From Rhodanobacter sp. C01 (GTDB lineage: Bacteria > Pseudomonadota > Gammaproteobacteria > Xanthomonadales > Rhodanobacteraceae): a stretch of DNA of 64,000 nt. Within the stretch, counting starts at the first letter, position 1; the number at the start of each line of letters is the position of its first letter. The notes beneath the pieces are model-generated. The model was not told the DNA's origin. It worked only from the letters and a program-made list of their open reading frames with translations, and made no database searches. This document shows positions 35,329 to 45,067 of the stretch, piece by piece. A program made the position numbers and the translations under genes. The stretch covers positions 186,001 through 250,000 of the forward strand of contig NZ_MUNR01000010.1 in the NCBI RefSeq assembly GCF_002001045.1. The letters are read 5' to 3'.

Positions 35329-35363
35329 ACATCAAAGGCCGCGTTTGCGGCCTTTGATGTTTT
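35329..35363. terminator. rpoD terminator, overlapping the 3' end of the HNH gene
   Basis: ACATCAAAGGCCGC (35329-35342) pairs with GCGGCCTTTGATGT (35347-35360) around GTTT, a perfect 14-bp stem followed by TTT. The minus-strand HNH reading frame uses the left and right arms as its last codons; its TGA is at 35332-35334. Confidence 0.9.
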
Positions 35364-35751
35364 CAGCGTGGACAGCCGCTGGCGTCAAACCAGGGAAGTG
35401 TTCTTCCGCATGACAATTCGCGCAAAGCAGAACACATTTCGCGACTTCTGCCTGAACATCAGTATGGCTGCGGTTCGATATGGCACGAACATCGAGGTTG
35501 AACGACTTCACTGCCGGGTCGATGTGGTGCCATGTCAGCGCAGCCAGATTCCTGCGATATCCGCATCGCGTGCAACGCCCACCGGCTTCCATGATCAGCT
35601 GCCACTTGCGTTGCAGACCGCGTGCCTGCTGGCAGGCGTAACTCTGGTGGCGATTGTTGGTGTCTTTGTTTTTGCAGCCTCTGGAACAAAACCTCCGCTG
35701 TCTGCCCGTCAAGGAACTCCGGCATACCACACAGCGCAATTCGGATTTCAT
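35332..35751 (-). CDS. Free-standing HNH endonuclease
   Basis: 139 aa from the ATG at 35751 (a TTG at 35769 would add six residues; neither has a good ribosome binding site). N-terminal Cys pairs C7xxC10 and C22xxxC26 form a possible zinc finger. A basic linker follows, then an HNH domain: C60xxC63, TWHHIDP with His75-His76, and CANCHAEEH with Asn112 and His114 plus the C110xxC113 zinc pair. HNH enzymes of this kind cut DNA and often mobilise introns. It ends in the rpoD terminator and starts 68 bases from the intron-split tRNA gene on the opposite strand. It may be the intron's mobility enzyme, or an unrelated HNH protein. Confidence 0.8.
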   Translation of the reverse strand: MKSELRCVVCRSSLTGRQRRFCSRGCKNKDTNNRHQSYACQQARGLQRKWQLIMEAGGRCTRCGYRRNLAALTWHHIDPAVKSFNLDVRAISNRSHTDVQAEVAKCVLLCANCHAEEHFPGLTPAAVHAENIKGRKRGL

Positions 35752-35819
35752 CAAATGATGATAATCCAAAGCACATCAGCATGTGGTTTATGCATCACTC
35801 ATTGCTACCATGCGCATAT

Positions 35820-36153
35820 GGGCCTGTAGCTCAATGGTTAGAGCAGGGGACTCATCGAAAGGTGCCGCCGCGGCGAAATCCGCGGATGGGATCGGGATGA
35901 ATTCAGGGAAACCTCAGCGGCGCGCTTCGCGCGGACGGTGGCAACCCTGAGCCAAGCCGGCGGTACACCGCCGGAAGGTGCAGAGACTACCTGAGGGCTT
36001 CAGTGCCCTTGATCACAGGCTCGAGCGTCCCGCACCCCACCCGTTCACGCTCATTGCGGCGAGCGGAGGGTGAAGAGATAGTCCGCGCCGAAGGGAAACC
36101 TTCGGAACAAGCGAATCCCTTGGTTCCAGGTTCGAGTCCTGGCGGGCCCACCA
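35820..36153 (+). tRNA. tRNA-Ile(CAU), minor isoleucine tRNA, interrupted by a group I intron
   Basis: Exons are 35820-35855 and 36114-36153. Joined they give a full cloverleaf: acceptor GGGCCTG/CGGGCCC (one G-U), D stem GCTC/GAGC, anticodon stem GGGGA/TCCCT with loop CTCATAA, T stem CCAGG/CCTGG and an encoded CCA. The body closely resembles E. coli ileX (GTTAGAGCAGG, GACTCATAATC, TTGGT). It is therefore the AUA-decoding isoleucine tRNA, whose C34 must be converted to lysidine by TilS, not a methionine tRNA. The intron splits it between U36 and A37. A cell normally has one such tRNA, so splicing is probably essential. Confidence 0.93.
35856..36113 (+). ncRNA. Self-splicing group I intron (IC3-like) in the tRNA-Ile anticodon loop
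   Basis: 258 nt, no reading frame inside. P1: CAT of the 5' exon pairs with GTG (35862-35864), with the U-G splice wobble and a GAAA loop. P2 is 35868-35873 with 35880-35885. P3 is CGGGATG (35893-35899) with 36026-36032. P4 is TCAGGG (35903-35908) with CCCTGA (35945-35950). P6 is 35957-35963 with 35968-35974. P7 is GACTA (35985-35989) with TAGTC (36079-36083). P9 is 36088-36094 with 36099-36105, GAAA loop. Conserved core strings CCCTGAGCCAAGCC, GTGCAGAGACTA and AGAGATAGTCC are present, and the terminal G is 36113. The known Azoarcus ribozyme occupies the same tRNA site. Confidence 0.93.
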
Positions 36154-36168
36154 CTTCTCCATATCTGC

Positions 36169-36201
36169 CTTAAGCACTTCGTAAGCGGACTACCTGATAA
36201 T
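36169..36201 (+). promoter_or_regulatory. Direct-repeat operator and -10 upstream of the response-regulator gene
   Basis: CTTAAG (36169-36174), five bases, CGTAAG (36180-36185), then ten bases and GATAAT (36196-36201). Half-sites spaced by 11 bp that replace the -35 element are typical of promoters activated by OmpR-family regulators such as PmrA or PhoP. Matching sites lie at 39441-39457 and 45051-45067. It suggests autoregulation. Confidence 0.6.
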
Positions 36202-36253
36202 CCATTGGCATTGCAGTGCCTTCACGGGATGACGCGGCCGAAGGAGTCCGTTC

Positions 36254-36919
36254 ATGCATATCATCCTGGTGGAAGACGATCCCCAGCTTGGCGCCGCGAT
36301 CCAGCGCGCACTGGAGCGTCTTGCCTATACGGTGAGCTGGCTGCGTGATGGTCGCGAGGCATTGATTGCACTGCGCGACCAGACCGCAGATCTGGTGCTG
36401 CTTGATCTGGGCCTGCCCGGCAAGGATGGGCTGGACGTGTTGGTCGAGGCACGACGCGGGCACGTGAAAACGCCCGTCATCGTGATGACTGCGCGTGATG
36501 CCCTCGGGGACCGCGTGCTCGGCCTGGATGCCGGCGCCGATGACTACCTGGTCAAGCCGTTCCACCTCGATGAGCTGGGTGCGCGTATTCGCTCGCTGAC
36601 CCGGCGTGCCCATGGTCTGGCTGCGAACCGCATCGAGGCGGGTGCGCTGAGCATCGACCTGGGCACCTCCGAGGTGACTTTCCGCAACGAACACGTCGAG
36701 CTGACCCGGCGCGAGTTCTCCCTGCTGCAGATCCTGATGGAACGCGCCGGTCGGCTGGTGCGCCGCGAGAGCCTGGAGAATTCGCTGTACGGCATCGACA
36801 ACATGGTCGGCAACAGCGCGCTGGAAGTGCTGGTGCATACGCTGCGTCGCAAGCTGAGTTTCGACACGATCCAGACCGTCAGAGGGTTCGGCTACATGAT
36901 TCCCAGGGAGCCGAAATGA
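36254..36919 (+). CDS. OmpR-family response regulator (PmrA/QseB-like)
   Basis: 221 aa. Receiver domain at residues 1-115: acidic pocket EDD at 7-9, phospho-acceptor Asp51 in LLDLGLPG, Thr79 and Lys101 in DYLVKPFHLDELGARI. The winged-helix DNA-binding domain is at about 125-218 (HVELTRREFSLLQILMERAG, LEVLVHTLRRKL, IQTVRGFGYMIP). The layout is closest to the PmrA/QseB/BasR group. AAGGAG precedes the ATG. The stop overlaps the kinase ATG (ATGA). It probably binds the repeated NNTAAG sites upstream of itself, the beta-propeller gene and the efflux operon. Confidence 0.95.
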   Translation: MHIILVEDDPQLGAAIQRALERLAYTVSWLRDGREALIALRDQTADLVLLDLGLPGKDGLDVLVEARRGHVKTPVIVMTARDALGDRVLGLDAGADDYLVKPFHLDELGARIRSLTRRAHGLAANRIEAGALSIDLGTSEVTFRNEHVELTRREFSLLQILMERAGRLVRRESLENSLYGIDNMVGNSALEVLVHTLRRKLSFDTIQTVRGFGYMIPREPK

Positions 36920-38304
36920 GGCTGGCCAGCCTGCATGCCAGGTTGCGCTGGTTGATCATCGTCGTGCTTGTCGCCGTGCTCCTGCCACTCGGCGTGATGG
37001 GTTTTCGCCGAACCATTACCGAGGTGGACGAGTTGTCGGACGGGCGCCTCGCACAGTCGGCGCGGACCCTGCAGGTACTCATCGAACACGCCGGCCTGAA
37101 TGCGCTTCGCGGCCATGATGCGGCAGGGATGCTGGTACCGATCGAACACCCGAAGACCGGCTCGCTGAAAGGGCAATCTCATACGCACGAATCCGAGGTG
37201 GGCTTTCAGGTCTTCGATCAGTCCGGGCATGTGGCCCTGGCGACCGCGAACATGGCCGCGTTGCCGCCGCCCAGGGAAGGTGACGGCAACCTCCAGGATG
37301 TGCAGCAAGGAGGCTATCTCTGGCGTGTGTTCACCCTGCCCGACAAGGTCGATGGCGTGGTGATCCGCACCGCCGAGCGCTACGACAGCCGCCACGACAT
37401 CACCCACGCCGTGTGGCTGGAACACAGCCTGCCACTGCTGATCGGCCTGCCCTTGCTCGCCCTGCTGGTGGGCTGGGCAATACGGCGCGGCTTGCGTCCA
37501 CTCGAATCGCTGGCGCGCGTCCTGTCGGCAAGAGAGCCGGGCAACCGCGAACCGGTGGTGCTGGACGACGCGCCGCTGGAACTGCAGCCTGTGCTGACCG
37601 CATTGAACGGACAATTGGTACGCCTGGAGGACGCGCTGGAGCGTGAACGCCGCTTCAGCGCGGATGTCGCGCACGAGCTTCGCACGCCGCTGGCGTCGGC
37701 GATGATCAATATCGAGAGCGCAATGACGACGACCGACCCGATCGAGGTTCATGCGACCCTGGCCAGCGCCCAGCACGGGGTCGCCGCACTGGCCCGGCGG
37801 ATCGAGCAGCTGCTGGCGCTGGCCCGACTGGAATCGAGGGCGGCATCGGGCCAGCGCGCGACCATCGATCTGGTCGCCATCGCGATGGACGTGGTCGAGG
37901 AATTGGCGCCCGTGATTGCAGACAGTGGCGTGGAGCTCAGCGTGGCGCGACATGCCTCGCAGGTGATCATTCAGGGTTACGAGGCGGCGATTGCGGCGCT
38001 GTTGCGCAACTTGCTGGAAAACGCCCTGCGCCACGTGCCCACCGGCGGCCAGGTACAACTGTCCATCGAACAGGGTGAACACGATGCGCTGGTGAATGTC
38101 ATCGACAACGGCCCCGGCATTCCGGCAGAGCGCCGCGCCAGCGTGTTCGCGCGCTTCCACCGCGAAGCGGGTGGGCGTGGCGACGGTTACGGGCTGGGCT
38201 TGTCGATTGTGCAGCGGGCTGCGCAGCTGCATGGCGCCACGATCGATCTGCTCGACTCGCCCTACGGCCAGGGCTTGCAGGTACACGTAGCGATCCCGCT
38301 GTAG
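36916..38304 (+). CDS. Sensor histidine kinase
   Basis: 462 aa. Membrane segment 1 is near residues 12-32, a periplasmic sensor region spans about 33-168, and membrane segment 2 about 170-192 is followed by HAMP. The dimerisation domain carries phospho-acceptor His253 (RRFSADVAHELRTPLASAMIN). The ATPase domain shows LLRNLLENALRHVP (N box), VIDNGPGIP (G1) and GDGYGLGLSIVQRAAQLHG (G2). It is the cognate partner of the overlapping response regulator. The ligand is not predictable; the linked efflux pump suggests an envelope stress or toxic compound. Confidence 0.95.
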   Translation: MRLASLHARLRWLIIVVLVAVLLPLGVMGFRRTITEVDELSDGRLAQSARTLQVLIEHAGLNALRGHDAAGMLVPIEHPKTGSLKGQSHTHESEVGFQVFDQSGHVALATANMAALPPPREGDGNLQDVQQGGYLWRVFTLPDKVDGVVIRTAERYDSRHDITHAVWLEHSLPLLIGLPLLALLVGWAIRRGLRPLESLARVLSAREPGNREPVVLDDAPLELQPVLTALNGQLVRLEDALERERRFSADVAHELRTPLASAMINIESAMTTTDPIEVHATLASAQHGVAALARRIEQLLALARLESRAASGQRATIDLVAIAMDVVEELAPVIADSGVELSVARHASQVIIQGYEAAIAALLRNLLENALRHVPTGGQVQLSIEQGEHDALVNVIDNGPGIPAERRASVFARFHREAGGRGDGYGLGLSIVQRAAQLHGATIDLLDSPYGQGLQVHVAIPL

Positions 38305-38347
38305 TCGTGAGCGTTGCCCGCGACGACAGCGGCCCGACCATACCAGC

Positions 38348-39379
38348 TCAGTGACGCCCGACCGTAAGGATGCTGAAGCTGTCCGGCTCGATCGTGGGCC
38401 GGCCGTTGGCCTGCTTGGTGGTGCCCAAACGCGCGGCCGAGAGATACAGCACGTGCAGCTTCGGATCGAGCGCCAGCGTACGCGCGCTGGTCTGGGTGGG
38501 AATCGTCGCTGCCACGCCGAAGTGATCCGGATCGTTCTCGTGCACCGCGGTGATCGTGCCGCTTTCGCCATTGGAGCTGTAGACCATCGCCTCGGCGGCA
38601 TCGAACACCACCGCATCCGGGCCGTCGCCGATCGCGACGGTCGCCACCTGACGACCGTTCACGGCATCGGTGATCGCCATCGTGCGGTTGTCGCACACCG
38701 AGAACAGCCGGTGATGCGCGGCGTCGATGGCCAGGCCGCTCGGTGATTCGCACGGCGCCAGCGACCAGGTATGCAACACCTTGTTGCTGGTGGTATCGAT
38801 CTGTATCAGCTCGGACTTGTCCTCAATGTTCGCGTAGACGTGGCCCGCACCATCGGATACCGCGAACTCCGGCTTGCCGGGCAGCGCGATCGTGCCGATC
38901 ACCGCATTCTTGGCCGGGTCGATCACGCTGGCCGTGCCGCTCTTGCCGTTGAAGGTGAACACGTGATGCGAGGCGCTGTCGTACACGATCGCATCGGGCT
39001 TCTCGCCGGTGCCGGTGATCGTCGCCACGGTTTTCAACGTGCCCAGATCGAACACGGTCACCGACGCGCTCTTGCCGTCGCTGGTATAGCCGCGCTGCAG
39101 ATCGGGGTCGATCGCGATGCCGTGCACGCCCTGGGTGTTGGCGATCGTGTCGACCTGTTTTTGCTGGTCGACATCGATCACCAGCACGCGGTCGCCGCGG
39201 CTGACGAACAGATGACGGTGCTGTGCATCGAAACTCAGATAATCCCAGCCACCTTCTCCGGTCAGCGGCAGTCGCGACAGCACCTGATACGTCGCGCTTG
39301 GCGCAGCTGCTGCGGCCACATGCGGAAGGCAGGCCAGCGCGAGCAGCGCCGGAATGAAACTGCTTACGCGTAGTTGCAT
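38348..39379 (-). CDS. Exported YncE-like beta-propeller protein
   Basis: 343 aa. A signal peptide spans residues 1 to about 24 (MQLRVSSFIPALLALACLPHVAAA). The rest is a seven-bladed propeller of the YncE/YVTN type, with repeated units such as VIDVDQQKQVDTIANTQGVHGIAIDPDLQRGYTSDG and VFDLGTLKTVATITGTGEKPDAIVYD. It is periplasmic; family members bind ligands or DNA and their roles are mostly unknown. The start ATG at 39379 follows GAGGTG. It converges on the histidine kinase. Its upstream region holds one of three NNTAAG-N5-NNTAAG repeats, so it is probably co-regulated with the efflux operon. Confidence 0.88.
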   Translation of the reverse strand: MQLRVSSFIPALLALACLPHVAAAAAPSATYQVLSRLPLTGEGGWDYLSFDAQHRHLFVSRGDRVLVIDVDQQKQVDTIANTQGVHGIAIDPDLQRGYTSDGKSASVTVFDLGTLKTVATITGTGEKPDAIVYDSASHHVFTFNGKSGTASVIDPAKNAVIGTIALPGKPEFAVSDGAGHVYANIEDKSELIQIDTTSNKVLHTWSLAPCESPSGLAIDAAHHRLFSVCDNRTMAITDAVNGRQVATVAIGDGPDAVVFDAAEAMVYSSNGESGTITAVHENDPDHFGVAATIPTQTSARTLALDPKLHVLYLSAARLGTTKQANGRPTIEPDSFSILTVGRH

Positions 39380-39440
39380 GTTGACACCTCGCATGAACGG
39401 GGAAAGTGTGGAGCTCGCCACTGCAGGATGCTGGCACCAG

Positions 39441-39457
39441 CTTACGCGTGCCTTAGC
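39441..39457 (-). promoter_or_regulatory. Direct-repeat operator upstream of the beta-propeller gene
   Basis: On the minus strand GCTAAG, five bases, CGTAAG (39457 down to 39441). Ten bases on lies CATCCT, a poor -10 (three of six matches), as expected of an activator-dependent promoter. The site overlaps the TAA stop of the efflux permease gene (39453-39455). Confidence 0.5.
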
Positions 39458-42400
39458 CGACCTTTCCTGCATCGCGACGCCGCAACAACGAATACAGCAC
39501 CGGCATCACCAGCAGTACCAGCGGCACCTGCACCAGCAGGCCGGCGATGATCGCCACCGCCAGCGGCTGCTGCATCTGCGAGCCTTCGCCGACTGCGAAT
39601 GCCAGCGGCAGCAGGGTAAGGATTGCCGCCAGCGTGGACATCAGGATCGGTCGTGTACGGTGCTGGCCAGCTGCATGCAATGCATCGTGCAACGGCATCT
39701 CGGCGTTGGCCTGCTCGAATTCGGAGAAATAGAAGATCGCCACTTCGGTGACGATGCCGACGATCATCGTCATGCCCATCATCGCCGAGATATTGAGCTC
39801 GATGCCGGTCAGCCACAGCCCGGCAAACACCGCCGGGATCGCCAGCAACGGCATTGCCAGGATCGCCAACGCCACGCGAAAACTCTCGTACAGGAACAGC
39901 AGCAGGGTAAACACCAGTGCGATCGCCGCCAGCATCACGATGGTCAGGCCGCGGAACGCCTGTTGCTGTTGCTGGTACAGGCCACCGAGCTGGACGAACA
40001 TGCCTTTCGGCAGCAGGCCTGGCTGCGCCAATACCTTCTTGATGTCGACGATGGTCGCGCCGAGACTGCGCCCGCTGATCAGGCCGGTGACCGCATCCAT
40101 CCGCTTGAGATTGTCGCGGGTGATTTCCGGCTGGCCCTGCACCTGCTGCAGCGTGGCCACTCGTGACAGCGGCAGCAGGTGACCATCGCCCGCGCGGATC
40201 GGCAGCGCGGCAACCTGCTCCAGTCGCTGATGCGAATTCTCCGGCAGGCGCACGCGCACACCGACCATCCTGCTGCCTTGCGGCAGTTGCGCGGCCACCG
40301 TGCCATCGATCGCTGCAGCGACCTGATCGGTAACGCTGGTCGGATCGAGGCCTTCCAGCGCCGCCTTGGCCGGGTCGACCTGCACGGTCAGCGCATCGCC
40401 AGCCGGATTGATGCCATCGCGCACGCCCACCACGCCGGTGATCTTGCCGATCGCGTCGGCGACCTTGCCGGCAGTGGCCGCCAACTCCGCGGGATCATCG
40501 CTGTACAACTGGATCTCGATCGGCTGCGGCACCGCCACCAGATCGCCGATCAGATCCTCCATCAACTGTGACAAATCGATATCCAGCCCTGGCACCTTCT
40601 GCTCGACCTCGGTGCGCACCTGCGTCATCACCTCTTCGGTCGAGGGACGCGAGCCGCTTTTCAGGCGCACGAAAAAATCGCCATTATTCGCCTCGGTGAG
40701 ACCGCCGCCCAGCTGCAGGCCAGTACGTCGCGAGTAGGTATCGACATTCGGGTTCGCGCGGATGATCGTCTCGACCTGCCGCAGCAGGCGGTCGGTTTCC
40801 TCCAGCGAGGTGCCGGGCTTGGACAGGTAATCGAGGATGAAACCGCCCTCATCCATCTGCGGCATGAAGCCCGTGCCGACGCGGGTATAGGCCACGCCAC
40901 CGACCAGCAGCAGCGGCACCACCAGCAGTAGGATCAGCAACGGCCGCTGCAGCCCGCGCTGCAGCAGGTTCTGATAGCCATGCATCATGCGCTGGGTGAA
41001 ACGGCCCGGCGGATGCTCGATCCGGTGGCGCCGGTCGAGCGGGCGCCGATCCAATAGGCGTTGTGCCAGCAACGGCACCGCAATCCAGGTCAGCAGATAG
41101 GAAATGATCAATGCACTGGCCATGGTCAGCGACAGCGCCTTGAAGAAGGCGCCGGTGACGCCGGTCAGGAAGGCCAGCGGCAGGAAGATCACCACGGTGG
41201 CGGCGCTGGAGCCGGTCAGCGGACGAGTGAACTCCCATGCCGCGCCAGCGATGCGCTCGTGCACTTCACCGGCGCTTTGGTTGAGCCGACGCATGATGTG
41301 CTCGAGCATAACGATCACATCGTCGATGATCAGGCCGACCGCGGCGGCCATGCCGCCCAGCGTCATCATGTTGAAGCTCATGCCGAGCACGTAAAGCAGC
41401 AGCACGGTGATCGCGAGCACCGCCGGCACCACAATCAACGCGACCAGGATCACCCGCGTGTTGCGCAGGAACACGAACAGCACAAGACCGGCCAGCACGA
41501 TGCCGATCAGGATCGCGTCGCGCACGCTGCGGGCCGCGCCGGTCACCAGCTGGGTCTGGTCGTACCAGTTGGCGACCTGTACACCGGCCGGCATCTGCGG
41601 CGCGTAGTCGGCCAGCCGCTGCTTCACCTCACCGGCGATCTGCACGGTATTGCCGTCAGGCTGCTGATAGACCTGCAGCAGCACGGCGTTCTGGCTATCC
41701 GCATTGACGCGGATCCACTGCGGCACATGATCGAGACTGACCGCGGCTACATCGCCGAGATGCACCACCCCGGCAGAGCCAGCTCGAATCACGATGTCGC
41801 GCAGCGCGGCGACGGTGGCCGGCTGGTTATCGGCCAGCAGCAGGTACAGCTTGTAGTGGTCGGAAACGCGACCCATCGCCTGGATCGTGGCGGCATGACT
41901 GACTGCGCCGGCGACGTCGCTCAGACTGATGTTCAGCGCGCGCAGCTTGCCGGGATCGACATCGGCATGGAACTCGGCCACCTCGCCGCCTTGCACTTCG
42001 ACCTGGGCCACGCCACTGATTCCGCTCAGCAGCGGACGCAGCTGGTACTCGGCCAGATCATGCAAGGCACTCGGCGACAAGGTATGCGAACGCAGGCTGT
42101 AGGCCAGCACCGGGAAGGTGGTCGGATCCATCCGGCGGGTGGACAACTGCGTGCCCGCCGGCAGCTGCGGCAGGATCTGCCCGGCGGCCGAGTTGATCTC
42201 CTGCAGCGCCGCGCTCATGTCCGCGCCCCAGTCGAACGTCACCGCGACGTCCGCGCTGCCGCGACCGGTGGTGGAGCGCACGTCGCGCACGCCATGCACG
42301 CGCCGGATCACCTCTTCCACCGGTGTGGTCACCTCGATGGCCATCTGGTCGGCCGGACGATCGCCCGCATCCAGGGTCAGCTGCACGCGCGGGAACGCCA

Positions 42401-42518
42401 CGTTCGGGAACAGCGCCACTGGCATCAGCAACGCGCTGGCGATGCCGCCGATCGTCAGCATCAGGAGGAGGAACAACAGCGAACGACGATGCCGCTGCAT
42501 CCATGCGGTGATGCTCAC
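39453..42518 (-). CDS. RND-family efflux permease
   Basis: 1021 aa, full-length resistance-nodulation-division inner-membrane pump that drives export with the proton gradient. Twelve membrane segments: one at 13-32, two periplasmic porter domains, and the central block (AILIGIVLAGLVLFVFLRNTRVILVALIVVPAVLAITVLLLYVLG). TM4 reads GLIIDDVIVMLEHIMRR with the adjacent Asp-Asp of drug-efflux (HAE) pumps. Metal pumps of the CusA/CzcA type instead use spaced D...D...E, so a drug or organic substrate is favoured. The GTG start at 42518 overlaps the stop of the adaptor gene. It is the last gene of the operon. Confidence 0.93.
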   Translation of the reverse strand: MSITAWMQRHRRSLLFLLLMLTIGGIASALLMPVALFPNVAFPRVQLTLDAGDRPADQMAIEVTTPVEEVIRRVHGVRDVRSTTGRGSADVAVTFDWGADMSAALQEINSAAGQILPQLPAGTQLSTRRMDPTTFPVLAYSLRSHTLSPSALHDLAEYQLRPLLSGISGVAQVEVQGGEVAEFHADVDPGKLRALNISLSDVAGAVSHAATIQAMGRVSDHYKLYLLLADNQPATVAALRDIVIRAGSAGVVHLGDVAAVSLDHVPQWIRVNADSQNAVLLQVYQQPDGNTVQIAGEVKQRLADYAPQMPAGVQVANWYDQTQLVTGAARSVRDAILIGIVLAGLVLFVFLRNTRVILVALIVVPAVLAITVLLLYVLGMSFNMMTLGGMAAAVGLIIDDVIVMLEHIMRRLNQSAGEVHERIAGAAWEFTRPLTGSSAATVVIFLPLAFLTGVTGAFFKALSLTMASALIISYLLTWIAVPLLAQRLLDRRPLDRRHRIEHPPGRFTQRMMHGYQNLLQRGLQRPLLILLLVVPLLLVGGVAYTRVGTGFMPQMDEGGFILDYLSKPGTSLEETDRLLRQVETIIRANPNVDTYSRRTGLQLGGGLTEANNGDFFVRLKSGSRPSTEEVMTQVRTEVEQKVPGLDIDLSQLMEDLIGDLVAVPQPIEIQLYSDDPAELAATAGKVADAIGKITGVVGVRDGINPAGDALTVQVDPAKAALEGLDPTSVTDQVAAAIDGTVAAQLPQGSRMVGVRVRLPENSHQRLEQVAALPIRAGDGHLLPLSRVATLQQVQGQPEITRDNLKRMDAVTGLISGRSLGATIVDIKKVLAQPGLLPKGMFVQLGGLYQQQQQAFRGLTIVMLAAIALVFTLLLFLYESFRVALAILAMPLLAIPAVFAGLWLTGIELNISAMMGMTMIVGIVTEVAIFYFSEFEQANAEMPLHDALHAAGQHRTRPILMSTLAAILTLLPLAFAVGEGSQMQQPLAVAIIAGLLVQVPLVLLVMPVLYSLLRRRDAGKVG

Positions 42519-43582
42519 TGGGCGGACTCCCGCACCGCATCGCCATCATTGAGTTCATAGGCGCCGAGAACGATCACCTTGGCCTGCGCATCGAGCGCGC
42601 CTTGCACGCCGACGGTATCGCCATCCGGACTGCGCACTGTCACGCCGATGCGTTTGGCGTGGCCGTGTTCGACCTGAAACAGGTAGTCGCCATGCTCGTC
42701 ATGCAGCACTGCTGCACGCGGCACCGCCCAGGCGTTGAAGTCGTCCGTGCGGATCTGTGCATCCAGTGCCGCACCGGCCAGCAAGGTCGCGCCGGCCGCT
42801 GCGGGAAGCTCGACCTGTGCCGGCAGCAGATGCGTCTGCGGATCGATCGACTGCCCGAGCATGCTCAAGCTGCCGGCAAAATCCGTCGCGCCATAGGCGC
42901 TGCGCAATCGAACCGGCATGCCGACATGCAGCTTCGCGGCATCTTCGGGCTGCACGCCAAGCTGGGCCACGAGCGCATGCGCCGGTGTAAAACCCAGCAA
43001 CGGCGCATTCGCCGCGAAGCGTTCGCCCAGCCCCACACTGAGCGCGGTGATCACGCCATCGGCCGGCGCATCGACCGCCTCCTCGGCCGCGCCGCCGCCG
43101 AGCGCACGCTGCGCGTCGAGTGCCGCCTGCGCATCGGTCAGCGCCTTGTGTGCAGCTGCCAGCTGCGACTGCGTGACCAGCCGCTGGGCAGCCAGTTGCT
43201 CGGTGCGCTGGAGTTCGCCGCTGGCCAGGGTCAGTCCACTCTGCGCCTGCTGGTAGCTGCTGCGCGCCGCCGGATCGGGTGTGACCAGCAGCAATGGCTG
43301 GCCGTGTTTGACCGTCTGACCGCCTGCCACGTTCACGGCAGCCACCTGGCCGCCATGCGCGAGACTGATCGTGCGTGCGTGCTGTGGATCGCCGATCGCG
43401 CTGCCCCAGGCGTCCACGGTGTCGTGAAAAACCTGCTGCGTTGGCATCACCGTGGTCACCGCGACCTGCCCCGGCGGCGCCGTGGCATCGTCGTCATCGG
43501 CGGCGCCATGGCTGCAGCCGGCCAGCATGCCGAGCAGCAGCAGCAGGCCGCACAGCTTGGGCAAAGGGATTGAACGATTCAT
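42515..43582 (-). CDS. RND efflux periplasmic adaptor lipoprotein
   Basis: 355 aa membrane-fusion protein. The N-terminus MNRSIPLPKLCGLLLLLGMLAGC is a lipoprotein signal with Cys23. Then come a biotinyl-lipoyl-like half-motif (AWGSAIGDPQHARTISLAHGGQVAAVNVAGGQTVKHGQPLL), an alpha hairpin (about 100-160), its return half (PADGVITALSVGLGERFAANAPLLGF) and beta-barrel domains. It bridges the permease and the outer-membrane channel. The start ATG at 43582 overlaps the stop of the channel gene (ATGA), and its own stop overlaps the permease GTG, so all three are tightly coupled. Confidence 0.93.
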   Translation of the reverse strand: MNRSIPLPKLCGLLLLLGMLAGCSHGAADDDDATAPPGQVAVTTVMPTQQVFHDTVDAWGSAIGDPQHARTISLAHGGQVAAVNVAGGQTVKHGQPLLLVTPDPAARSSYQQAQSGLTLASGELQRTEQLAAQRLVTQSQLAAAHKALTDAQAALDAQRALGGGAAEEAVDAPADGVITALSVGLGERFAANAPLLGFTPAHALVAQLGVQPEDAAKLHVGMPVRLRSAYGATDFAGSLSMLGQSIDPQTHLLPAQVELPAAAGATLLAGAALDAQIRTDDFNAWAVPRAAVLHDEHGDYLFQVEHGHAKRIGVTVRSPDGDTVGVQGALDAQAKVIVLGAYELNDGDAVRESAQ

Positions 43583-45000
43583 GGCGTGACTGCTTTGACG
43601 GAAACAGGATGGACGGTGGCGAGATCGGTATTGCCGAGCAGGGCTTCCAGCGCAATCGCCTGGGTGGCCTGCTGCTGTTGCAGATCGAGCAGGTCGAGGT
43701 CGGCGCTCAGCGCGCTGCTGCGGATGGTCAGGTAGGTCGGCCAGTCCAGCAGGCCTTGCTGCCACCCCGTTTCGGCCGCACGCCGGGCCGCGTCCAGCTG
43801 TTGCGCGTGGGCGGCCAGTGACACGCGCTGTTGCTGCAAGGTGGCGAGATCGGCGACGAGTCGCTGCATGTCGCTGCGGGTATCCAGCACGCGCGCCTCG
43901 TAGTCGTCCTTCAACTGCTGCCGGGTGGCTTTCTCGATCGCGATGTTGCCGCGGTTACGATCGAACAGCGGCAAGGTGATGCCGATGCTGAAGCCGCGGG
44001 TGGACACGTCGGTGGTGTCGCGCGCTTTATTGAAGCCGACGTTCAGAGCCGGAAACTGAGCCAGCACGGCCGCGCGCAGCTGCGCCTCCTGCGACTGGTA
44101 GCCGGCCTGCAGCGCGAGCAGGTCGGGCCGCCGCCGCGGCAGGTCGGTCAACGCCTGCTGCACCTGCTCGGGCGTCGCGCTGGCCTGATACGGCGCACCT
44201 ACGAGATCAAGCCGCGCATTCGGCGCCAGTCCGAGCAAGACATGCAGGTCACTTTCCGCCTGATGCAGTGCGATCGCCGTGTCCGCCACACGCTTGCGCA
44301 CATCCGCACCCGCATTGAGACCCACACTGGCGGTGTCGTAAGTGAGATTACCCGCATGCAGGGCTGCGTGGATGGCGGGTTCGAGCCGTGCCAGCGCGGT
44401 CTGCTCGGACGTGAGTCGCGCCTGCTGCGCGCGCAGGGTCTGCACCTGATCGAACAGCAGTCGGGCCTGTGCGACGCTCTGCCATTCTGCCCACAGCAGG
44501 TCGAGATTCACCTGTTCGGCCTGGCTGCGTGCGGCCGCGCGACGTGACGAGCGCATCAACAACGCAGTGACGTCTTCGCTGAGACCGAGGTTGTACGCGC
44601 TGCTCAGGCCGGGGCCGGGATGGGTGAGATAGTCCTTGCCGAAATTCAGTTGCGGATCGGGCAGCAGGCCCGCGGCAAACGCCTGCGCGCGCGCGATGCC
44701 GAGCTCATCGCGCTTGACCTTCAAGGCCGGACTGTTGACCACCGCCAGCATCGCCACTTCGGTGACATCGAGCCCGCTCGAAGGATCGAAACGATGCTCC
44801 GGCATCGCCAGCGTCGGCATCGCCGCTGCCGGCGCCGTCAGTTGCCTCACGCTGGCTGCGCCCTGACCATCACCGAGTGGAGCCGGCGCGTAGGTGGCAC
44901 ATGCGGACAGCAGCAGGCCAGCGACGATGCTCATCGCCACCCTGAATGCATGGCGTCGTGGCACGGTCACGGTAAAGCGATATCGCCACACGGGCAGCAT
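43579..45000 (-). CDS. TolC-family outer-membrane efflux channel lipoprotein
   Basis: About 473 aa. Two TolC-type repeats with long helices are visible (SPALKVKRDELGIARAQAFAAGLLPDPQLNFGKDY and DLLALQAGYQSQEAQLRAAVLAQFPALNVGFN). A lipobox-like VAGLLLSACATY suggests a lipid-anchored CusC/NodT-type channel. The start is uncertain: an ATG at 45036 overlaps the likely -10 and is rejected; 45027, 45000, GTGs at 44970/44964 and an ATG at 44934 behind AGGGTGGCG remain. A start near 44970 gives the best signal peptide (TVPRRHAFRVAMSIVAGLLLSAC). It is first in the three-gene efflux operon. Confidence 0.88.
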   Translation of the reverse strand: MLPVWRYRFTVTVPRRHAFRVAMSIVAGLLLSACATYAPAPLGDGQGAASVRQLTAPAAAMPTLAMPEHRFDPSSGLDVTEVAMLAVVNSPALKVKRDELGIARAQAFAAGLLPDPQLNFGKDYLTHPGPGLSSAYNLGLSEDVTALLMRSSRRAAARSQAEQVNLDLLWAEWQSVAQARLLFDQVQTLRAQQARLTSEQTALARLEPAIHAALHAGNLTYDTASVGLNAGADVRKRVADTAIALHQAESDLHVLLGLAPNARLDLVGAPYQASATPEQVQQALTDLPRRRPDLLALQAGYQSQEAQLRAAVLAQFPALNVGFNKARDTTDVSTRGFSIGITLPLFDRNRGNIAIEKATRQQLKDDYEARVLDTRSDMQRLVADLATLQQQRVSLAAHAQQLDAARRAAETGWQQGLLDWPTYLTIRSSALSADLDLLDLQQQQATQAIALEALLGNTDLATVHPVSVKAVTP

Positions 45001-45034
45001 GTATCGGGGATGGTGGACATGATGCATGTTCCCC

Positions 45035-45067
45035 ATTCTGGACGCCGCGGCTTAGTTCTTTCTTAAG
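45035..45067 (-). promoter_or_regulatory. Direct-repeat operator and -10 of the RND efflux operon
   Basis: On the minus strand CTTAAG (45067-45062), five bases, ACTAAG (45056-45051), ten bases, then CAGAAT (45040-45035) as -10. Half-site spacing and distance to the -10 equal those at the response-regulator promoter (36169-36201). Confidence 0.6.

Follow-up and report, generated by a model that had tools for sequence, protein, structure and literature searches.

In the solved complex of PmrA, tandem half-sites are bound head to tail with the -35 position at half-1 (excerpts of PMC4660055 and PMC3973317), and at pbgP the excerpted text of PMC4660055 again places half-1 at the -35 position. AgrR of Cupriavidus metallidurans, as far as described in an excerpt of PMC7380067, is an OmpR-type regulator with positive autoregulation and a proposed type II activator position. 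Here we describe three direct repeats of the form NNTAAG-N5-NNTAAG (boxes; core TAAG-N7-TAAG) at a two-component and efflux gene cluster of Rhodanobacter sp. C01. The window, i.e. the whole stretch analysed, comprises 64,000 nucleotides (bases 186001-250000 of contig NZ_MUNR01000010.1; G+C 64%) of a 3.98-Mb genome. The boxes are real and have been conserved in related bacteria. With a probability of roughly 0.84, judged from sequence, the local OmpR/PhoB-type response regulator (RR) binds them over the -35 region, activating itself, the operon of a resistance-nodulation-division (RND) pump and the gene of a beta-propeller protein.

Box 1: 36169..36185, plus strand, CTTAAG-N5-CGTAAG, upstream of the RR gene; conserved before RR orthologues
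Box 2: 39441..39457, minus strand, GCTAAG-N5-CGTAAG, upstream of the propeller gene; exact box in 9/18 propeller loci
Box 3: 45051..45067, minus strand, CTTAAG-N5-ACTAAG, upstream of the pump operon

Three copies of TAAG-N7-TAAG are present in the window, each at one of these places, and the coordinates and orientations given in a first-pass annotation of this DNA (36169-36185 on the plus strand, 39457-39441 and 45067-45051 on the minus strand) were confirmed. Its estimate of about two chance matches at equal base use was too high: dinucleotide shuffles of the window yield an expectation of 0.10, with 0/100 shuffles reaching three, and the window's own base use yields 0.43. As the motif had been picked after reading, 1,224 tetramer/gap combinations were scanned. 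Only CAGC, at gap 8 and at gap 11, had a lower Poisson p than TAAG at gap 7 (2.5e-7, rank three), and the remaining top-12 combinations all have gap 5, 8 or 11, i.e. are codon-periodic. The genome holds six exact copies, three of them inside 9 kb at the cluster; the reversed pattern, a rough control only because it is a different word, occurs 32 times.

At each box, a -10 element begins ten bases past the repeat:

-10 element of box 1: 36196..36201, plus strand, GATAAT
-10 element of box 2: 39425..39430, minus strand, CATCCT
-10 element of box 3: 45035..45040, minus strand, CAGAAT

The first-pass annotation had reported this offset of exactly ten bases for GATAAT and CAGAAT at the first and third sites; both stand, and the middle site had been missed although CATCCT (39430-39425) has the same offset. 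In relatives, a box-aligned A at +26 is found in 15/15 exact-box RR promoters, 94% of 47 pump promoters and 9/9 propeller promoters, and a T at +30 in 100% (n=15), 91% (of 47) and 100% (n=9), respectively. This near invariance in three promoter classes means that a -10 of the form xAxxxT begins ten bases beyond the second TAAG; in genus g11, eight RR promoters have it displaced one base further away. With the transcription start assumed about 7 bases past the -10, the half-sites would occupy about -39 to -34 and -28 to -23, which puts half-1 in place of a -35 element. The arrangement supports activator-type promoters of the sigma-70 kind, in which the box would replace the -35. The likeness to promoters activated by OmpR-family regulators, proposed earlier, gains from this fixed geometry and from the specificity of the spacing.

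The latter was assessed at 70 loci (L031-L100), each holding a relative of the RND permease, in which six proteins were mapped and the upstream regions scanned for exact TAAG-Nk-TAAG, with k from 2 to 14, on the sense strand. Among the RR promoters (RR of at least 70% identity, 20 loci), 15 are exact at N7, any other spacing being found once at most, and the remaining five carry TAAG-N7-AAAG (1) or TAAG-N7-GAAG (4). Propeller promoters are exact at N7 in 9/18 loci and at no other spacing, and pump promoters at N7 in 26/70, with 0-2 at other spacings; the exact pump boxes of L035, L040 and L045 are additional, belonging to a count of 16 genomes given below and not to the 26/70. The same-genus relatives L071-L075 share the gene order of the window and have the complete set of three boxes in every case (5/5). 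Where the propeller gene is divergent from the pump operon (L061, L063, L098), each of the two promoters has its own box. RR and pump boxes have changed jointly in genus g4 (L078-L081), both reading TAAG-N7-GAAG in 4/4 genomes, with the propeller promoter lacking a box. In genus g18 the RR gene lies distant from the pump or on another contig; in its ten genomes with both, the pump box is CAAAG-N6-CTAAG (10/10) and the RR box exact in 9/10, and G017, the sole g18 genome with the pump and without an RR match, has no pump box even at one mismatch.

Genome-wide exact counts within the genus of the window are 3 (G126), 5 (G105), 8 (G067 and G018), 11 (G039) and 12 (G136), of which three each (two in G018) lie at the cluster, so that G126 has no exact copy elsewhere; the sites outside the cluster were retrieved for G136 (9/9), G067 (5/5), G105 (2/2), G018 (4/6) and G039 (0/8). 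One same-genus genome, G146, gave no match to the pump at E <= 1e-100 and none to the regulator at E <= 1e-55. An order-level search for the regulator (E <= 1e-70) gave matches in 23/200 genomes, all in family f1, so that the conservation could not be followed into other families. The box is not general either, as an exact copy precedes only 2/38 of the more distant PmrA/QseB-like regulators scanned (L107-L144; 38 of 80 loci).

The RR and a histidine kinase are encoded on the plus strand (36254-38304), followed by convergent minus-strand genes for the propeller protein, the RND permease, the adaptor and the outer-membrane factor, up to about 45027:

36254..36919, plus strand, OmpR/PhoB-type response regulator (REC and winged helix), 221 aa; best NCBIfam score PmrA, below its cut-off
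36916..38304, plus strand, sensor histidine kinase, QseC/PmrB-like, 462 aa; 4-base overlap with the RR gene
38348..39379, minus strand, YncE/YVTN-type beta-propeller protein, 343 aa; signal-peptide-like start (by eye)
39453..42518, minus strand, RND permease, 1021 aa; PF00873 710.3 bits, GLIIDD motif (read by eye)
42515..43582, minus strand, periplasmic adaptor (HlyD/RND_mfp), 355 aa; RND_mfp 142.3 bits (cut-off 94.9)
43579..45027, minus strand, outer-membrane efflux protein (OEP), first gene of the pump operon; PF02321 74.1 bits, start moved from 45036 to ATG 45027

Both RR domains score over their cut-offs (PF00072 91.1 bits; PF00486, Trans_reg_C, 69.3 bits), which makes the protein an OmpR/PhoB-type regulator, and the clustered genes for permease, adaptor and outer-membrane factor encode a tripartite RND efflux system. 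The GLIIDD motif, which we take to mark the drug type, would point to a drug and not a metal substrate. An alignment of the kinase's sensor part contains conserved stretches and offers no clue to the signal.

In the mechanism we propose, the partner kinase (36916-38304) would phosphorylate the RR (36254-36919), which would bind NNTAAG-N5-NNTAAG as a head-to-tail dimer. The boxes would substitute for the -35 at three sigma-70-type promoters, the bound RR would recruit RNA polymerase, and transcription of three units would be switched on: the operon of the RR itself, the RND pump operon with its three genes, and the propeller gene. Phosphorylation, binding by this RR and activation instead of repression are steps that we infer. 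Conservation, the specific spacing, the -10 geometry and the fact that RR and pump boxes changed together in one genus support the earlier proposal of a local two-component regulon of the 36254-36919 regulator, and the box carried by the RR's own promoter nearly throughout its subfamily favours the local RR as the reader. Judged from its promoters, the system is probably a small OmpR/PhoB regulon in which the regulator controls an efflux pump as well as its own gene. It is a compact, testable set of regulator, pump and propeller protein whose promoters can be read from sequence, and it would help in finding what an uncharacterised efflux pump responds to.

Several findings weigh against this reading. 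An exact pump box occurs in 16 genomes without an RR match at E <= 1e-55, i.e. outside the 68 genomes matching the regulator (G012, G024, G041, G042, G048, G054, G055, G063, G070, G074, G077, G082, G083, G096, G118 and G137), so the presence of this RR cannot be deduced from the box alone, and the window genome itself encodes a 68%-identical RR paralogue. No propeller box is found at 9/18 propeller loci. L095, of the same genus and with the gene order kept, has lost the propeller box and retained the other two; the check for repeat loss in relatives of the same gene order, named in the first-pass annotation, thus leaves 5/6 with all three boxes. The worst fit within the genus is G093, with TAAG-N7-CAAG at the RR, only TAAG-N7-AAAG at the pump and no propeller box, and in g18 the genome G092 has a pump box and none at the RR promoter. 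If A is allowed as first base, 45/70 pump promoters have the box at N7, but others have it at N3 (9) and N10 (4). The pattern of box plus -10, with W as first base, is not enriched genome-wide (4 vs 3 for the reversed pattern), and the base-contacting Asn188 and Asn196 of PmrA are Ser and Thr in this RR.

The 16 genomes and the paralogue bear on the possibility that a different OmpR-family regulator, either the 68% paralogue or a more distant one, reads the boxes, with the neighbouring pair merely one client. The 16, which belong to genera g6, g13, g22 and g24, have no close relative of this RR but retain the exact pump box; all eight of those tested hold another regulator about 40% identical to it, which suggests that the regulator may have been exchanged and the box retained, and in seven genomes a box faces the divergent neighbour of that regulator. 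Its own promoter, on the other hand, has no sense-strand box at any scanned locus, and neither the window genome nor any of seven other same-genus genomes tested gave a match to the 40% regulator (E <= 1e-60). The paralogue's promoter, in the window genome and in three relatives, carries a different box in the same geometry and with the same -10 offset, AAAG-N7-CAAG, which argues that the paralogue reads another site. As the promoter of the local RR is itself boxed in nearly all its subfamily, we regard another reader as unlikely.

Binding by the local RR could also mean repression, or autoregulation only, if the occupied box kept RNA polymerase away; box and -35 region overlap, and a protein bound there could obstruct the enzyme as well as recruit it. 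A conserved -10 with the box replacing the -35 is the layout of activator-dependent promoters, and the box position equals that reported for PmrA at pbgP (PMC4660055, from an excerpt), which makes this variant improbable. That the repeats are due to chance, or belong to ordinary constitutive promoters, has in its favour that the first TAA of the middle box is the RND stop codon, which falls inside the first half of that box, so that some of its letters are constrained anyway. Propeller boxes nevertheless remain at the three loci where the gene is not behind the RND gene, and the shuffle expectation, the genome counts, the spacing control, the three sites of G126 and the scan of 1,224 combinations all speak against it. 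With 0.10 matches expected in the window, six in the genome, the specific spacing and the rank in the scan, a chance origin was rejected, and we give this explanation hardly any weight. Activation by the local RR through all three boxes is the reading that we retain.

The -10 of box 3 has a consequence for the pump operon, as the listed start codon (45036) sits within CAGAAT. The true start is likely ATG 45027, which begins 8 bases beyond the last base of the -10. Start codons were surveyed in the 47 pump promoters with a -10 at the fixed offset, the first half being TAAG in 28 and AAAG in 19. An in-frame start 36-40 bases from the box start, i.e. at the predicted transcript start, occurs in 21/28 TAAG-type vs 0/19 AAAG-type promoters, the latter having their first start at 31-71, mostly 56-71. 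The same slot holds a start codon in 1/20 RR and 0/10 propeller promoters; control slots of equal width contain in-frame starts in 15 (+60 to +64), 13 (+66 to +70), 4, 3 and 0 rows, i.e. in up to 15/47. As the pump promoter of the window belongs to the TAAG type, we predict, from sequence, a leaderless mRNA for the pump.

For comparison across paralogues, identical promoters (last 100 bases) were merged and regulators below 64% identity left out, resulting in 76 distinct RR promoters. NAAG-N7-NAAG-N11-A-N3-T is found in 56/76, with no other spacing from 2 to 14 more than once; eight further promoters have an exact box with the -10 shifted by one, and 12/76 have neither. The first base of half-site 2 varies with residue 187 of the regulator: with Arg187 it is other than T (AAAG, CAAG or GAAG) in 13/13, and without Arg187 the promoters read TAAG/TAAG in 40/43 and non-T at half-site 2 in 3/43. 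In a tree of 81 rows, all of at least 50% identity and not including six named distant ones, Arg187 has only two origins, so that the pair test has no power and the link to residue 187 is to be taken as a lead. The matching residue of PmrA, Thr187, is reported to touch bases (excerpt of PMC4660055). Asp187 coincides with absence of the NAAG box in 10/11; several members of this paralogue group (L105, L106, L219-L224, L246) have, by eye, TTACCC- and GTCAC/GTAAC-like stretches instead.

Tentatively, and with less than even confidence, these observations may be drawn together into a family-wide picture. Duplicated PmrA-like regulators would share one rigid layout (half-site, 7, half-site, 10, -10) and would differ in the half-site letters that each paralogue reads; the choice of the first base would depend in part on residue 187, which stands where the recognition helix begins. 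In some genera the pump regulator would have been swapped for a distant one with the box kept, and TAAG-type pump promoters would give leaderless mRNA. A natural paralogue series in which regulator and site letters vary at fixed geometry is of use for studying how duplicated OmpR/PhoB regulators stay apart.

The three exact sites outside the cluster lie, with neighbouring open reading frames (ORFs) judged by eye, in a MocR-type regulator gene, in the gap between rarA and a TonB-receptor gene, and between outer-membrane-protein genes; the -10 geometry in the TAAG reading is found at none of these three. The site in the rarA/TonB-receptor gap, GCTAAG-N5-NCTAAGCTTGGTAAT (genes named by eye; L102, about 1002-1016; G000:C7:58501), is conserved in G136 and G105, with differing inner bases in G105 and no -10 at the usual offset. 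The one between the two small outer-membrane-protein genes (by eye; L103, 971-985; G000:C13:200770) reads CTTAAT-N5-CTTAAT on the opposite strand, a perfect classical PmrA box. With WAAG-type half-sites the genome has 18 sites, four of them with the -10 geometry: the three cluster boxes and one before an acyl-carrier-protein/ketosynthase operon (by eye), AAAG-N7-TAAG followed by TAGACT (L307, 3048-3078; G000:C12:122047-122077). This site with its -10 is present in 9/10 same-genus genomes, and GTAAGC and TAGACT are kept in 9/9 aligned same-genus promoters; since the first half of the site shares bases with the beginning of the divergent gene, the operon is a candidate fourth target only.

At 35820-36152 of the window lies a tRNA gene with anticodon CAT, presumably of the tRNA-Ile2 type. 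A group I intron of about 258 bases (35856-36113; Rfam RF00028, 62.6 bits) interrupts this gene behind the anticodon. ARAGORN called the gene a tRNA-Arg and misplaced the intron. Within the genus, a full-length match is found in 15/45 genomes, the window genome included, and directly adjoining exon pieces (empty site) in 24/45. A small HNH-like ORF beside the gene (35332-35769, minus strand; PF01844 20.9 bits, just below the cut-off of 21.4) could be a stand-alone homing endonuclease.

Among the papers searched, none joins Xanthomonas, PmrA, a box, a response regulator and TTAAG, and none joins Rhodanobacter, two-component system and RND efflux. Compared with PmrA/PmrB (BasRS), the RR aligns without gaps to BasR/PmrA 1-217, yet it scores 219.2 bits against the NCBIfam PmrA equivalog (cut-off 330) and the kinase 198.1 bits against that of PmrB (cut-off 314); as the curated cut-offs failed, orthology to PmrA was rejected. 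The kinase scores best against QseC, at 219.6 bits below the cut-off of 475, and the RR reaches 190.3 against 345 bits for QseB, whose consensus, as quoted in the excerpt of PMC10729948, is unlike these boxes. The invariant core here is TAAG, whereas for PmrA the same excerpt gives (C/T)TTAA(G/T). Only 2/6 half-sites, both CTTAAG, fit YTTAAK-N5-YTTAAK, the others being CGTAAG (twice), GCTAAG and ACTAAG. With cut-offs failing and a differing core, the system is not filed as PmrA or QseB. Its putative targets, an RND pump and a propeller protein, are different as well. Next to the three exact sites outside the cluster, inspection by eye revealed no lipid A gene, lipid A genes themselves not having been searched for. 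Of the resemblance to PmrA boxes asserted in the first-pass annotation, the identity of the box is therefore not borne out, while the geometry holds: two 6-bp half-sites with 5 bp between them (11 bp apart), and half-1 at the -35, a likeness in sequence geometry only. In Klebsiella, according to partial source text, the half-2 site CCTAAG has the same core as these boxes. AgrR differs in its core site, an inverted repeat ATKACA-N4-TGTMAT with extra direct repeats, as opposed to the pure direct repeat found here, and in its metal-resistance targets (PMC7380067, in the part available). In geometry, the RR of the window is like PmrA, and in mechanism it probably works like it as well.

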